The notes under the pieces were generated by a model, which was not told the origin of the DNA, did no database searches, and saw only the letters and a list, made by a program, of their open reading frames with translations. A DNA stretch of 41,120 nucleotides from a virus: positions 1 to 41,120 of IMG/VR virus record IMGVR_UViG_3300020009_000010; one strand, written 5' to 3'. Position numbers and translations under genes: made by a program. Within the stretch, counting starts at the first letter, position 1. Each line of letters opens with the position of its first letter. This document shows, piece by piece, positions 1,876 through 39,064 of this stretch.

Positions 1876-2096
1876 GCAGAGAATCCATGTTACGCAAGAT
1901 TAGCAATGATCTTCGCGACACAAGTGTGTGGGTGGAAATCAATGCGCAAGGCGGCGGGACCGCATATTTCCTATCTAATTGCTTGAAAATTGATCGCGTA
2001 CTGGTTAGCGCGTCCCTGCAAAGGCTCAAGCGAAGGGGCGAAGTTACTAATCAAGGTAGTTATTGGAAGCCCGCGCCAATCGCTCCCATTGCCTAA
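1872..2096 (+). CDS. Small winged-helix-like DNA-binding protein (74 aa)
   Basis: Overlaps the previous stop by four bases. The sequence follows a winged-helix plan: an N-terminal helix (RKISNDLRD), a short middle helix, a recognition-type helix (KIDRVLVSASLQRLKRRGE) and a wing (VTNQGSYWKPA). It is short enough to be only the DNA-binding domain. It could regulate early transcription or be a minor accessory factor. Its stop abuts the stop of the convergent holin gene with no intervening base, so early and late transcripts collide or overlap here. Confidence 0.55.
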   Translation: MSRESMLRKISNDLRDTSVWVEINAQGGGTAYFLSNCLKIDRVLVSASLQRLKRRGEVTNQGSYWKPAPIAPIA

Positions 2097-2687
2097 TCAC
2101 TTATCCGGCTTGGTCACCGTGCCAGGCGCAACCGCAAACTCAGTGACAATCGCGTTCTGCTTCTGCGATTCCTTGGTCATGCCGAACCAGAAGCCCATGA
2201 CTTCCTTGGTCATGCCAAGCCATAGGCCGAGGACCATGCCCACAGTGAGCGATGCCGTTGGATCAGTGATCGCGGCATTCGCCCATCCAAGCATGGTAGC
2301 CACGACAACGAACAAAGATCCGGCCAGCGTCACAATGGTCAGCGCTGGCCGGATCATGTCGTTTGGCTGCTTAGCTGCCAGTTGTCTTGCGCTATCCCGA
2401 TCAGCAGCCTCGGCAGAATACTGTGCGCCTTCAGCCTGAATCCGGGTCGTTTCGATCTGGACGGCTAATTGCTCAAGTTGAACCCGTGCGTTTATTTGCA
2501 GCTCTTGGATGCGCACAAATGCTTCAGGGTTCCCAGCAAGCGCAGCATTAACCGCTTCAGGGTCATTCGACACATTCAGCGCGCTCGCGACTAACGCACC
2601 TACAGCGGCACCAGCGGGGCCACCGAGAAGGGTTCCGACGATTGGCGCGACGCGGCCTACCATGTTGCCGATGTCTGACCAGTTCAA
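2097..2687 (-). CDS. Holin, 3-TM family
   Basis: Last gene of the lysis cassette and of the late transcript. Features match the 3TM holin family: a Gly/Ala-rich N-terminal segment (APIVGTLLGGPAGAAVGALV), a charged middle helix (ARVQLEQLAVQIETTRIQAE) and two C-terminal membrane spans (ALTIVTLAGSLFVVVATML and SLTVGMVLGLWLGM). It would form inner-membrane lesions that release the endolysin. TTG at 2687 is preferred as the start because it overlaps the endolysin stop (TTGA) and has GGAG eight bases upstream. An ATG at 2714 would add nine residues and overlap the endolysin more deeply. Confidence 0.75.
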   Translation of the reverse strand: MNWSDIGNMVGRVAPIVGTLLGGPAGAAVGALVASALNVSNDPEAVNAALAGNPEAFVRIQELQINARVQLEQLAVQIETTRIQAEGAQYSAEAADRDSARQLAAKQPNDMIRPALTIVTLAGSLFVVVATMLGWANAAITDPTASLTVGMVLGLWLGMTKEVMGFWFGMTKESQKQNAIVTEFAVAPGTVTKPDK

Positions 2688-3145
2688 TTTGCACGCTCCA
2701 GGCCGAACGCCCATGAGTCAGGCCATTTGTCTGGATGCGGCCTGCCCGGACGCCACAAGCGTTTAGCGTACATCTCCCAGGCATCTTCAGCATTGTCAGG
2801 CAGCGGCCTTGGATCGGTGTACATCAGCAGTCGCGCAAAGGCAGCGCCAAGCACGTCATCGGTTTCCATTGCCTTCCAGATGGCAGAGCTATTGAATTCG
2901 ACGCCTCGCGCCTCGCAGACCGATACGGCCAGCCGCACGCTTGCCTGATGAAGCATTACGCCTTTGATGCCGCCTTTCTCAAACTGCCAATAGGAACGAG
3001 CCGGACCATTGCCGTATTGGATGCGGACTTGATAGCCAGACTCTTGATAGCCAATAGCCGCCAGGATCACACGAGCATTCAGTGAGTCCATTTTGGCTGG
3101 CAGCAATTGGAATGCCGCCTCGATTGCCGCTTTTGGGTAGGTCAT
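2684..3145 (-). CDS. Endolysin, lysozyme/transglycosylase-like
   Basis: 153 residues with the N-terminal pattern ILAAIGYQESGYQVR followed by ARSYWQFEKGG. This is the catalytic Glu and neighbouring aromatic region of phage SLT/lysozyme-like muramidases. It would cleave peptidoglycan at the end of infection. No signal peptide or membrane anchor is seen, so export depends on the adjacent holin. It overlaps the upstream small membrane gene by four bases and the holin start by four. Confidence 0.8.
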   Translation of the reverse strand: MTYPKAAIEAAFQLLPAKMDSLNARVILAAIGYQESGYQVRIQYGNGPARSYWQFEKGGIKGVMLHQASVRLAVSVCEARGVEFNSSAIWKAMETDDVLGAAFARLLMYTDPRPLPDNAEDAWEMYAKRLWRPGRPHPDKWPDSWAFGLERAN

Positions 3146-26980: not shown

Positions 26981-27057
26981 TGGCGCGAATGATCGGTATC
27001 GAACCGACGGCCTCTTGCGTGACAGGCAAGCGCTCTAACCATCTGAGCTACATCCGC
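26981..27057 (-). tRNA. tRNA-Asp (anticodon GTC), CCA encoded
   Basis: A full cloverleaf on the minus strand: acceptor GCGGATG/CATTCGC, D-arm GCTC/GAGC, anticodon stem CTTGC/GCAAG with loop CTGTCAC, T-arm GTCGG/CCGAT with loop TTCGATA, discriminator G and encoded CCA. Length is 77 bases. Why the phage carries Asp decoding is not evident. It may offset host tRNA cleavage. Confidence 0.95.
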
Positions 27058-35341: not shown

Positions 35342-36244
35342 ATGGCGTTTACCCTCCACAACATCGCAGCCAACAAAGAAAACTCCACCGCCAAGCGCGC
35401 CGACTCGATCAAGGCGCTGCTCAGCAAGATCAAGATCGTCAATGGCTTCAACGAGCGCGATTTTCAGCGCGAAGACGTGCGCCTGCATATCGCCTCGATT
35501 GTTTCCTCGCTGATCGCTGGAGAGCCGATTCCGGCGCTGATGGTCTGGACGAATCCAGAAACCGGCGACATCGAGCTGGTTGATGGCGAATGCCGTTACT
35601 GGGCCTACACCGATTTCGCTGCGGAGTATCCGGACAAGTTCGACGGCTATGTAAGTGTTGTTCCGTACCAGGGCACACCGGCTCAACGCAAGGCGATGGT
35701 GGCCAAGAGCAATAGTCAGTTGCCGCTTGATCCCGTTCAGCGCGGTCGCGTCTATCTGTCGCTGCGTGATGAGCATGGCATGAGCCGGCAGGATATTGCG
35801 GCCGAGATGGGTAAGTCGTTGGCGCACGTTGATCAGCATCTGTTGCTGGCCAGCGGCGGCGAAGAGGTTCATGCAGCCGTTGGCGCTGGCGTTATCTCGG
35901 CCACCGAGGCCGTCAAGCTGGTACGCGATCATGGCGCTGATGCACCGGCTGAACTGGAGCGCCGCAAAGAGGCTGCCAAGGAAATCGGCAAAGGCAAGGT
36001 GACTGCGAAGGTTGCGGCGCCGAAAGCTCCTAGTCGGCCGAAAGTGGACATGGTTGTTTCGAATGCGGCGGTGTTGGTTAACGGGTTGAGCCCTGATGTT
36101 TTGGCTGCTTGCGAAGGTGCAGCTATGCAGTTTGTTTTCGTCAGCTCTCACACGCTCGGCGATCTGATCATGGCCGTTCGCGAAATGCAGCAGAGTAGCA
36201 AACCTCTCGACGCTGATCGCCAGGTTGAATTGCCGATTGAGTAA
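35342..36244 (+). CDS. ParB-like DNA-binding protein
   Basis: 300 residues from the ATG with AGGAG at nine bases. Residues about 35-105 form a ParB/sulfiredoxin-like N-domain (NGFNERDFQREDVRLHIASI, VDGECRYWAYTDF resembling the GERR box). Then a KorB-type HTH (MSRQDIAAEMGKSLAHVDQH). The C-terminal part is Lys/Ala-rich with a short last domain. No ParA partner was seen, so plasmid partition is unproven. ParB-fold phage proteins also act in transcription control or as nucleases. Confidence 0.75.
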   Translation: MAFTLHNIAANKENSTAKRADSIKALLSKIKIVNGFNERDFQREDVRLHIASIVSSLIAGEPIPALMVWTNPETGDIELVDGECRYWAYTDFAAEYPDKFDGYVSVVPYQGTPAQRKAMVAKSNSQLPLDPVQRGRVYLSLRDEHGMSRQDIAAEMGKSLAHVDQHLLLASGGEEVHAAVGAGVISATEAVKLVRDHGADAPAELERRKEAAKEIGKGKVTAKVAAPKAPSRPKVDMVVSNAAVLVNGLSPDVLAACEGAAMQFVFVSSHTLGDLIMAVREMQQSSKPLDADRQVELPIE

Positions 36245-36253
36245 GGGCATAAT

Positions 36254-36401
36254 TGTTTTGCGCAGGCCGTGAGACGCCGAAGCAAAACAGGATCGACGGC
36301 TAACTAGAGCCTTTTGATGTTCGCTGTTCCTTGCAGGATTGACCGCCGTCGATCCAAGTCCTGCCGGGAGTCTCACCAGCGAACAGTCAAAGGGCTTTTT
36401 T
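36254..36401 (+). ncRNA. Structured RNA with two predicted pseudoknots ending in a terminator
   Basis: Five helices can be drawn: D, TGTTTTGC/GCAAAACA (36254-36261 with 36282-36289); A1, GTGAGAC in the loop of D with GTCTCAC (36370-36376); A2, GGATCGACGGC (36290-36300) with GCCGTCGATCC (36345-36355); B, 36308-36325 with 36378-36396 (18 pairs, one bulge); C, GCAGGATTG (36333-36341) with CAAGTCCTGC (36355-36364). A2 pairs with the loop of C inside B, and A1 crosses B, so two pseudoknots result. B ends in six T residues. No coding frame fits. C and A2 share one base, so they may alternate slightly. Confidence 0.7.
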
Positions 36402-36414
36402 GTGGGTTGAATTT

Positions 36415-37026
36415 ATGCGGGCGAAAAACAAACTGCTATTCGGGGTCGGCATTAACGACGCCAGTTATGAGGTTTATTCTTTCGAGCGGCGAAACGGCAA
36501 GTATGCGGTCGCATGGAGATGCCCTCTGTATTCATCTTGGTGCGGCATGCTTGGTCGATGCTACAACGAGAGGGAGCTGCGTCGAGCGCCAACGTATCTT
36601 GAGTGCGCCGTATGCCCTGAATGGCTTAAATTTTCATCGTTTAGCTCATGGATGGCCACGCAAGGTTACTCCGGAAAGCAGCTAGACAAAGACATTTTGC
36701 ACCCAGGGAATAAGCTGTACGCGGCAGATAGGTGCGTATTTGTTACGCAGGATCTGAACAAGTTTTTAACTGATGCTGGCGCCGCTCGTGGCGAATGGCC
36801 TATAGGCGTCTCGTGGAACCGGAGAGATAAAAGATTTCAGGCGGCATGCGGAAATCCATTTGCCGGCACCAGGGATAGGCTCGGGTATTTCCTTTCTCCG
36901 GAAGCCGCACACGAAGCTTGGCGAGAAAGAAAACACAAATATGCATGCGCATACGCTGACATTCAGGATGACCCAAGAATTTCTGCCGCTCTCAGGATTC
37001 GCTACCTAAAATCAAGGGAAGCATAA
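36415..37026 (+). CDS. Homing-endonuclease-like (HNH-type) protein
   Basis: 203 residues from ATG 36415. A TTG at 36400 lies in the terminator T run. Motifs CPLYSSWCGMLGRCYNER, YLECAVCPEWLKFSSFSSWM, KQLDKDILHPGNKLYAADRC and VFVTQDLNKFL match a group of free-standing phage homing endonucleases of the HNH class, and the C-terminal WPIGVSWNRRDKRFQAAC is an AP2-like DNA-binding part. Its ribosome site is weak and the gene starts 14 bases after the RNA terminator, so readthrough may control it. Likely a mobile gene inserted between ParB and helicase genes. Confidence 0.7.
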   Translation: MRAKNKLLFGVGINDASYEVYSFERRNGKYAVAWRCPLYSSWCGMLGRCYNERELRRAPTYLECAVCPEWLKFSSFSSWMATQGYSGKQLDKDILHPGNKLYAADRCVFVTQDLNKFLTDAGAARGEWPIGVSWNRRDKRFQAACGNPFAGTRDRLGYFLSPEAAHEAWRERKHKYACAYADIQDDPRISAALRIRYLKSREA

Positions 37027-37027
37027 A

Positions 37028-39064
37028 ATGCCATTATTGGAACATCAGCTGCCAGTTGTGGCGGCAATGCGGAAGCACTTCAGATCACGCGAGATGACTA
37101 AGTGGCATGATCGGGAGATTCATCCCCCGATAGTTTGTAATGCCTCCGTTTCGTCTGGCAAGTCCGTAATAATTGCAGCCCTGGCTCTTGCAGTTCGGAA
37201 AGCGGCGATTGGAGCCGCAAGGCCGAGAAGTGTTTTTGTCCTTGTGATTCAAAGGCAAGGAGAATTGTGCATGCAGAACTCGGCAGCAGCCTGGGAATTC
37301 AACGACGAATCCAAGCTGCTGAACAACTCGCTGTTCAGCGCCAGTTGCGGCAAGGTCAAGTCGACCCACTTCCAAGTGGTCTACGCTACCGAGGGTACAA
37401 TCTCCCGCGCCCTTGGGTTCGGCGTAAAGGAAAAGGAAGGCGAAGAGCCAGAGCCACGCAAGTGCCAATATCGTTTCTCGATGTACACCGCCGAAGAACT
37501 CGCCAAGACGCCTGAGCAGCGCGCCCTGATGAAGAAGTTTCACCCGGACCTGATCATGTGGGATGAGGGTCACCAAATCCCATACGACAAGCCGGACAGC
37601 ATGGCCGTCAAGATTCTTGAGCATTTCTATGACTGCAAGCCGGCAATGCGCCTGGCGTGCTTCAGCGGGTCATGCTTTCGCGGCACCGAATCTATCGTCG
37701 GTGATACCCCGCAGCACCTTTGGAAGAAGTTTGCCAGTATCAAGCCGGACGATATCGATTATCCAGAAGGCGGCGTAGGCGACGGCATCATCACCACTGA
37801 ATTCATGATCGAGCAGGGCTGGGTCGTGCCGCCGACATTCGGCTATCCGGATGACACGGATAAGCAATACGACTTCAGCCACCTGAACCCGAACGGCTGG
37901 GAATATGACGAAGCCGAGATGGATGCCATTGTCAGCGATCACCAGAAGCTGCTGGCGGTCTGCTCTGACGTGATCGAGAAGGCGGCCAGCCGCAAGGGCG
38001 TCCTGATCTTCGCAGCAACCCAGCGGCACGCCAGGCAGATCGCTGCCGCCATGAAGGATCTCGGCGTTGATCCGGACACTATCGGCGTCATCACCGAGAA
38101 GACCAAGGACAAGGATCGGCGTCGGATTCTGGATCAGGCGAAAACCGGTGTGATCAAGTACACGATCAACGTGGCTGTGTTGACTACGGGCGTCAATGTC
38201 CCGTATTGGGACACGCTGGTATTCATGCGGCCAATCGGATCGCTGGTTCTGCTCATCCAAGCTATCGGTCGAGTGCTGCGCCTTCTGATCCTTGATGGCG
38301 AAGTGCCGATGTTTGAGCGCTCAAACTTGTTCGGCCTGACTGCGGCGGATCGCCTGGAGCTGATTGCGGCCAGCAGCAAGCCTGATGCTCTGGTTATGGA
38401 TTACGCCGACGTCATGAATACGCTCGGGCACCTGTACGACAACCAGATTCTCGAACAAGCCGAGCTGGAGAAGGCGAAGAAGGAGAAGAAGGATCTGATT
38501 GAGTGTCCAAAGTGCATGGCTGACCTGGGCATTCAGACCATGAACAGTCCATCAGCGCGCCGCTGCATCTACCGCGACAGCAAGGGCGAGCGCTGTGAGC
38601 ATTTCTGGCACTTCAGGTTGTGTCCTGGCTGCCTCACGCAGAACGATCAGGTCGCCCGCGAGTGCCGTTCGTGCCGTCGCATGCTGATCGATCCGAATGC
38701 TGTGCTGAACAATAAGAGTTATTCCGACGGCGAGTCGATTCCGGTGCGCTCGATGAAAGCTGGCCACGGCTCAGGCGGAAAACTCTGGTTCCGCTACGAA
38801 CTGTCGACAGGCGACACGCCGATGGAGATCTTCTATCCGCATGCCGGCGATAACAAGAAGGTCAACAATATCATCTGGGGCAAGTTCGTTGATGCGCTGC
38901 CGATTGATCAGCGGTCGCGACTGAGGCTTAGGGCGATGAAGGCTGAAACTGTTATGGAGAATATTGATTTGATTCCGGTCCCGACTGAGTTGTCGGCGCG
39001 GAAGAAGGGTAGTCGCTGGACGATTGGGCGTAGGCGTTATAATGAACAGGAGATGACTGTATGA
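37028..39064 (+). CDS. SF2 DEAD/DEAH-like helicase with zinc fingers
   Basis: 678 residues. Motif I SVSSGKS near residue 40, motif II LIMWDEGHQIPYD near 175, motif V AVLTTGVNVPYWD, motif VI QAIGRVLRL. A C-terminal zinc region has CPKC...C and CPGCLTQNDQVARECRSC pairs, followed by a beta-rich tail. Related helicases act in phage replication restart or recombination. Two bases after the endonuclease stop with GGAAG upstream. Coupled to the C39-like gene by overlap. Confidence 0.85.
   Translation: MPLLEHQLPVVAAMRKHFRSREMTKWHDREIHPPIVCNASVSSGKSVIIAALALAVRKAAIGAARPRSVFVLVIQRQGELCMQNSAAAWEFNDESKLLNNSLFSASCGKVKSTHFQVVYATEGTISRALGFGVKEKEGEEPEPRKCQYRFSMYTAEELAKTPEQRALMKKFHPDLIMWDEGHQIPYDKPDSMAVKILEHFYDCKPAMRLACFSGSCFRGTESIVGDTPQHLWKKFASIKPDDIDYPEGGVGDGIITTEFMIEQGWVVPPTFGYPDDTDKQYDFSHLNPNGWEYDEAEMDAIVSDHQKLLAVCSDVIEKAASRKGVLIFAATQRHARQIAAAMKDLGVDPDTIGVITEKTKDKDRRRILDQAKTGVIKYTINVAVLTTGVNVPYWDTLVFMRPIGSLVLLIQAIGRVLRLLILDGEVPMFERSNLFGLTAADRLELIAASSKPDALVMDYADVMNTLGHLYDNQILEQAELEKAKKEKKDLIECPKCMADLGIQTMNSPSARRCIYRDSKGERCEHFWHFRLCPGCLTQNDQVARECRSCRRMLIDPNAVLNNKSYSDGESIPVRSMKAGHGSGGKLWFRYELSTGDTPMEIFYPHAGDNKKVNNIIWGKFVDALPIDQRSRLRLRAMKAETVMENIDLIPVPTELSARKKGSRWTIGRRRYNEQEMTV

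Follow-up and report, generated by a model that had tools for sequence, protein, structure and literature searches.

What kind of RNA lies between a ParB-like gene and an HNH endonuclease-like gene in this viral DNA, and what might it do there? The window, by which we mean the whole stretch of 41,120 nucleotides analysed here (positions 1 to 41,120 of IMG/VR record IMGVR_UViG_3300020009_000010), has a short intergenic region between the stop of the ParB-like gene (36244) and the start of the HNH gene (36415). A preliminary description had proposed that this region encodes a compact RNA with two pseudoknots and a terminator at its end. We located all of the proposed helices there by direct reading, and covariation across 43 homologous elements bears out the fold. 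The terminator helix B was described as an 18-pair helix ending in a run of T; the helix and the T-run are present, but the count is 19 pairs, with a single bulged G at 36386.

Architecture of the element

The features of the locus, all on the plus strand, are as follows.

35342..36244, +, ParB-like protein, upstream neighbour (PHROG 1033, E 1.7e-47)
36225..36253, +, predicted sigma70-like promoter TTGAAT-17-CATAAT (consensus scan), overlapping the end of the ParB-like gene
36255..36288, +, 5' hairpin P1/P1a, its loop holding the A1 5' strand; P1 core and P1a covary
36255-36261/36282-36288, +, P1, GUUUUGC/GCAAAAC
36265-36267/36276-36278, +, P1a, GGC/GCC
36269..36275, +, A1 5' strand GUGAGAC, pseudoknot helix of 7 bp, pairing with 36370-36376
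36290..36300, +, A2 5' strand GGAUCGACGGC, pseudoknot helix of 11 bp, pairing with 36345-36355
36308..36326, +, 5' arm of terminator helix B (19 pairs, all changed on both sides among homologues)
36333..36364, +, inner hairpin C (36333-36340/36357-36364), 6 of 8 pairs changed on both sides
36345..36355, +, A2 3' strand GCCGUCGAUCC, within the loop of hairpin C
36370..36376, +, A1 3' strand GUCUCAC, directly abutting B
36377..36401, +, 3' arm of terminator helix B (pairs within 36377-36396) and U-tract (36396-36401)
36402..36406, +, GTGGG directly past the U-tract, in most homologues and recurring across types
36415..37026, +, HNH endonuclease-like gene, 203 aa (PHROG 953, E 1.6e-81)
37028..39064, +, DNA helicase, downstream neighbour (PHROG 16, E 2e-60; Pfam Helicase_C)

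From 5' to 3', the order is P1/P1a with the A1 5' strand in its loop, A2 5', B 5', C 5', A2 3', C 3', A1 3', B 3' and the U-tract. The helices are mutually compatible: A1 and B make an H-type pseudoknot, and A2 and C make a second one nested inside it. Because the A1 3' strand (36370-36376) adjoins the 3' strand of B (36377) and the A2 3' strand stops one base short of that of C, two coaxial stacks are possible. Pseudoknot-free folding of 36255-36401 (147 nt) gave -62.1 kcal/mol, as against -43.7 kcal/mol for shuffled sequences (z -4.9; 0 of 200 shuffles). Judged from its sequence, the window RNA is a double-pseudoknot RNA that incorporates its own intrinsic terminator. The GTGGG at 36402..36406 is the border of the surrounding cassette, and may possibly serve as a weak ribosome-binding site.

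Relatives and carriers

Among phage records, blastn brought up the Pseudomonas phages Orisa01-03, which are 75% identical, and pattern scans of IMG/VR together with record searches supplied further members, for 43 homologous (class-1) elements. These fall into type I (the window), type II (AH02 and many contigs), type III (Orimi01, HU1 and L043) and type IV (second copies). From one scan 6 of 24 loci, and from another 8 of 31, were dropped as terminator-less chance matches, judged by eye. Orimi01 and AH02 had been taken for empty sites on a match to only their first 28-37 bases; reading showed both to be divergent members. A covariance model (R1), built from 30 sequences with the pseudoknots omitted, also recovers type IV, which was absent from its training set, with E-values of 1e-8 to 1e-12.

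The carriers are many phages, mostly of Pseudomonas, with one to three copies of the cassette among their early genes; the hosts of the named ones are Pseudomonas syringae (Orisa01-03 and Orimi01, on P. syringae 7C), P. koreensis (AH02), P. lactis and Leptolyngbya boryana. No tyrosine-integrase model matched in 15 genomes of carriers or relatives, among them the window's record, and blastn against plasmids returned no match. Bacterial genomes scanned for the A2 patterns of types I and IV, which are part of the A2 sequence types, gave no true match: the 40 loci picked out look like chance, since the covariance model matches nothing there. Another search, of one bacterial class (369 genomes, seven candidates scored in each, no positive control), also found none, and we give it no weight. 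The lack of a tyrosine-integrase match, of a true bacterial match and of a plasmid match suggests that the carriers are mostly non-integrating phages, with the bacterial scan covering some A2 sequence types only.

Comparative support for the fold

We based the covariation analysis on an alignment (A4) of the 43 homologous elements, in 42 distinct rows, with the pseudoknots written in. Its covariation score was 0.570, compared with 0.187 for shuffles, and sliding the 3' partners gave at most 0.111. In this alignment, which amounts to about 25 effective sequences at 90% identity and whose counts refer to sequences and not to independent events, 92.0% of cells were paired (69.4% in shuffles) and 439 cells had changed on both sides (140.6 in shuffles).

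Helix A1 was left out of the model that built the alignment. It is paired in 301 of 301 cells across the 43 elements, in eight different complementary 7-mer pairs; in the first comparison, that of the window with Orisa01-03, GUGAGAC/GUCUCAC stood against GUGGAAC/GUUCCAC, a compensatory change. Helix B has compensatory changes at 19 of 19 pairs over the same 43 elements, and the variants of P1a pair in step (GGC/GCC, UGG/CCA, GCC/GGC, GAG/CUC and GGG/CCC). The value for A2, 78% paired, is an under-count, because types I and II differ in both the sequence and the length of A2; inspection by eye shows a separate complementary pair for each type. When all pairs of columns were scanned, the 15 that covary best all fell inside the proposed structure, and number sixteen lengthens helix C. 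The same scan was searched for off-structure covariation, as from the mutually exclusive terminator and antiterminator helices of a riboswitch or switching attenuator, and yielded none of helix length. A further alignment (A7) holds three doubtful rows (two reverse-strand matches and one divergent copy), and its counts are not used.

Compensatory change in relatives, which the preliminary description had put forward as a check, was found strongly, with A1, B, C and P1a all covarying. We regard this comparative evidence as decisive for the structure. Because compensatory changes preserve the fold while the sequence drifts beyond recognition, the RNA escapes searches by sequence.

As the preliminary description had been unable to match the RNA to a known class, so no Rfam 15 family reached its gathering score in the window region, in class 1 or in the class 2 described below; a lax search of the window region gave a best score of 14.5 bits against a threshold of 35. 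The known ribozyme models in Rfam gave no match either. A relic of a mobile intron-like element, one of the origins suggested earlier, is disfavoured, as no intron model matched and the element stands between two complete genes.

A second class with the same fold

At the ParB-helicase site of two contigs (L150 and L152), a different RNA stands before the HNH genes, and model R1 missed it. Relatives of it occur in the Pseudomonas phage AH02, within the other of its early operons, and in a Leptolyngbya phage, Lbo-JY16. This class 2, which we define by an alignment (A6) and direct reading, has the topology of class 1 plus one extra hairpin, and its sequence is unrelated to that of class 1. The class-2 A1 is invariant (UUGGCGG/CCGCCAA). 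By eye, A2 changes in step (GAAUGG/UCAUUC, GGAUUA/UAAUCC, UCAGCAA/UUGCUGA and UCAGU/ACUGA), and helix B and the extra hairpin also do so. A class-2 model found five more copies, in phages that have class-1 elements too. Four genomes (G002, G005, G006 and G008) have three RNAs each, one of type I, one of class 2 and one of type IV, and in the genomes that we mapped the copies are spread over two divergent early operons.

We also searched with a topology finder that recovers family members. Since it makes 7 matches in 302 kb of bacterial DNA as well, with scores up to 57, we treat its single-sequence matches as candidates only. One is a second copy at 2046-2190 (+) of L168 (genome G009), with A1 CUGCAA/UUGCAG, A2 AUUAGUAA/UUACUGAU and an extra hairpin. 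It sits behind a promoter sequence identical to the type IV promoter, which suggests that RNA bodies may be swapped behind one promoter. Another, at about 2860-2990 (+) of L008, an unrelated phage contig, has the same topology without sequence similarity (A1 UAGGAA/UUCCUA, A2 GUAGCA/UGCUAC and a terminator) and precedes an HNH gene 43% identical to that of the window. The last, on the minus strand of the AT-rich phage contig L109 (5604-5721 of the reverse complement), scores highly; a TATAAT precedes it, its A2 is a perfect helix of 10 bp and its terminator stem is long.

Promoter, terminator and spacing

For most of the 43 homologues, the -10-like box of the predicted promoter ends at one and the same alignment column (about 8), and its sequence differs among them (for example TATTAT, GATACT, TACAGT and TATGAT). 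Promoters predicted elsewhere include TTGACG-17-GATACT, TTGGCA-17-TAGAGT and TTTACC-16-TATACT, and in most members the distance to P1 is fixed; four loci (L026, L046, L136 and L137) have weak matches only. From this placement, transcription should start at the 5' hairpin. Terminator helix B and the U-tract are present in all members, the RNA and the gene behind it point the same way wherever we read the locus, and the next start codon mostly lies 12-16 nt past the U-tract, after the recurrent GTGGG.

In six loci (L022, L129, L130, L131, L134 and L135), the type IV promoter includes a conserved stretch, GGCCAATCCAGGCC, which reads TTGGCCAA in most of them and may be an operator palindrome.

Neighbouring genes and mobility

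The preliminary description had set the RNA upstream of a homing-endonuclease-like gene. For the window this agrees with the PHROG 953 match, while a Pfam search of the same gene (36415..37026) found nothing. As a general label for the RNA, endonuclease leader is too narrow, because the element, present up to three times in a genome, precedes many unrelated genes. In about half of the cases the gene behind it is not an endonuclease gene; such genes encode Erf, a RecE-like exonuclease, RecT, an antirepressor and proteins without known identity. The HNH genes behind the RNA are themselves of several kinds: PHROG 953 in the window, HNH_3/PHROG 99 in the Orisa phages, PHROG 374 in L025, an endonuclease-VII-like gene in L153 and an HNH fragment in HU1. 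Relatives whose RNA is 92-99% identical to that of the window nevertheless have HNH genes that are mostly 57-65% identical at the DNA level.

Four contigs (L108, L109, L110 and L114) have another structured-looking insert, nearly identical among them, about 80 nt before an HNH gene (AAGTGTGGCTAGGGTCTGCAGCCC...TTTTGATGACACTT); an Rfam search of the L109 copy gave no match. Elsewhere in the window, a tRNA-Asp (gtc) gene lies at 26981-27057 on the minus strand.

Comparisons between genomes bear on how the RNA came to stand before such different genes. Class-2 copies in G002, G005, G008 and G009 are ~100% identical over ~170 bp, and both flanks fall to ~25%; the type IV pairs L129/L135 and L131/L130 have likewise sharp borders of identity at the cassette edges. 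Contig L145 is an empty site, where ParB and helicase genes 90% and 91% identical to those of the window flank a junction without the RNA and the HNH gene. We conclude from this comparison that, in the window, RNA cassette and HNH gene arrived together. In L023 and L025, an RNA and HNH unit separates a 366-aa gene from an Erf-like gene; in G008/L022 these two genes are direct neighbours. AH02 has a type-II RNA with its HNH gene ahead of an orphan 3' half of an HU1-type RNA, and contig G415 has the HU1-type RNA whole, before a homologue of the gene behind that orphan half.

Cassettes ~100% identical between flanks at ~25%, the empty site in L145 and the AH02/G415 pair together indicate that the cassette moves, and that HNH units can land in it. 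A cassette of ~170-190 bp, made up of promoter, RNA and terminator, is accordingly mobile, with or without an HNH gene, and homing-endonuclease units are caught here moving with, and into, the RNA element. We consider the structure and the mobility well supported by these sequence comparisons.

The orphan half in AH02 (L037 3660-3745) lies behind the HNH gene. In the AH02 record, the annotated start of gene 26 is upstream of it, and the gene reads through the relic.

Proposed function

Our preferred reading, to which we give close to an even chance, is that the cassette is a cis-acting, gene-independent punctuation mark of early operons, combining stop, restart and gated read-through. Transcription arriving from upstream would be stopped at the cassette and a new round initiated at its own promoter, and expression of the gene ~13 nt downstream would depend on the share of polymerases passing the stop. 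Both pseudoknots, formed just before and beside the terminator arm (A1 abuts B), would set or gate the efficiency of the stop, and the differing A1 and A2 of copies in one genome would prevent mispairing between copies. We prefer a role in cis because the copies that we read are co-directional, stand just before a start codon independently of the gene, are repeated within a genome and share a shape without sharing sequence. Short distances to the next start codon are, however, common in phage operons anyway. Against gating in cis, the terminator looks strong and no conserved antiterminator helix appeared in the covariation scan; a promoter with a strong terminator 145 nt later is also typical of a stand-alone small RNA gene.

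The main rival is that the elements are such autonomous genes, each making a stable ~145 nt RNA that acts in trans, most likely as a shape offered to a host or phage protein (a decoy or inhibitor) and not by antisense pairing. This is a serious possibility, if a tentative one, and nearly as good as the reading in cis, since the bounds set by promoter and terminator coincide exactly with those of the folded RNA. The RNA is kept while both of its neighbours vary, and the whole of it is folded with nearly every helix free in sequence, as expected for shape recognition. Yet few unpaired bases are conserved across types and classes, so that no common recognition sequence is seen, the copies directly precede a start codon, and a single function in trans would not obviously call for two to three divergent copies in a genome. 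We think it unlikely that the cassette is just a passive recombination linker with a plain terminator, providing homology for the shuffling of genes by recombinases and insulating incoming genes, with pseudoknots that merely give a robust stop or an RNase-resistant end. The sharp borders of identity and the exchange of HNH and other accessory genes behind RNAs 92-99% identical fit a linker, as does the analogy with the PeSL cassettes of T4-like phages (PMC4503421). A homology patch would retain its sequence, though, whereas types and classes here have lost identity with every helix kept by compensation, and A1 and A2 are superfluous for a plain terminator.

Very improbable, and as a general role largely refuted by the RNA copies without an HNH gene, is that the RNA belongs to the homing endonuclease, as a leader lowering HNH expression or aiding mobility. 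It would explain why RNA and HNH gene occur together at the ParB-helicase site (the window, L142, L150-L153 and L155) and are both absent in L145, the joint unit before Erf in L023/L025, and the unit that in AH02 precedes the 3' half of another RNA. The half of the elements that precede other genes speak against it, as do HNH relatives in G027-G030 without a recognisable class-1 RNA.

Taken as a whole, the elements may represent a class of phage RNA defined by its fold alone, a nested double pseudoknot that includes a terminator of its own, with two or more classes unrelated in sequence and up to three distinct copies per genome. It would act as a conditional, infection-sensing terminator or as a shape-specific effector, and would have spread as a mobile cassette, sometimes with homing endonucleases. 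We hold this combined view provisionally, as somewhat short of an even chance.

Comparison with known systems

The RNA family is not in Rfam 15, and it rides in a mobile promoter-terminator cassette, a kind already known. In type III toxin-antitoxin systems, ToxI-type antitoxins are pseudoknotted RNAs in tandem repeats, with a ToxN/AbiQ-like toxin gene. Like them, the element here joins a pseudoknotted RNA to a terminator, with a gene behind it; unlike them, it is a single RNA unit without a ToxN-like gene, and the genes that follow are mutually unrelated.

PeSLs (promoter-early stem-loops) of T4-like phages were reportedly described by Arbiol et al. in 2010 and Comeau et al. in 2014. They are not known to hold more than simple stem-loops. 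A later source presents them as small intergenic promoter-terminator cassettes (PMC4503421). Both PeSLs and the present cassettes combine an early promoter with a terminator stem-loop, occur several per genome and stand at the borders of shuffled genes. Of PeSL-type features, we found a sigma70-like predicted promoter, a terminator stem-loop and conservation between unrelated neighbours. The two differ, in a comparison by description and not by sequence, in the conserved double pseudoknot of ~145 nt that lies here between promoter and terminator, and in the phages that carry them. Among the systems compared here, PeSL cassettes are the closest known analogues.

The SAS/ESAS elements of cluster K mycobacteriophages are 17-bp inverted repeats and a conserved 13-bp motif, with a 4-13 bp spacer (PMC3203893). 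These too are repeated inverted-repeat elements right before the start codons of diverse genes, but SAS/ESAS are conserved in sequence, whereas here we find a pseudoknotted RNA. Among open-access papers, none of PeSL, SAS/ESAS and HK022 put is known to have this RNA. HK022 putL and putR are RNAs of ~70 nt with two stem-loops and no terminator, which make the polymerase ignore later terminators (PMC9378689). Like the RNA here they are structure-defined RNAs of phage early operons, put having one per divergent operon; no pseudoknot is mentioned for put (PMC9378689), in contrast to the double pseudoknot of ~145 nt with a terminator described here. Gene-independent and present in multiple copies, the element, which the open-access papers searched do not describe, may serve phage early operons as a general means of control, with a role comparable to that of lambda nut or HK022 put.
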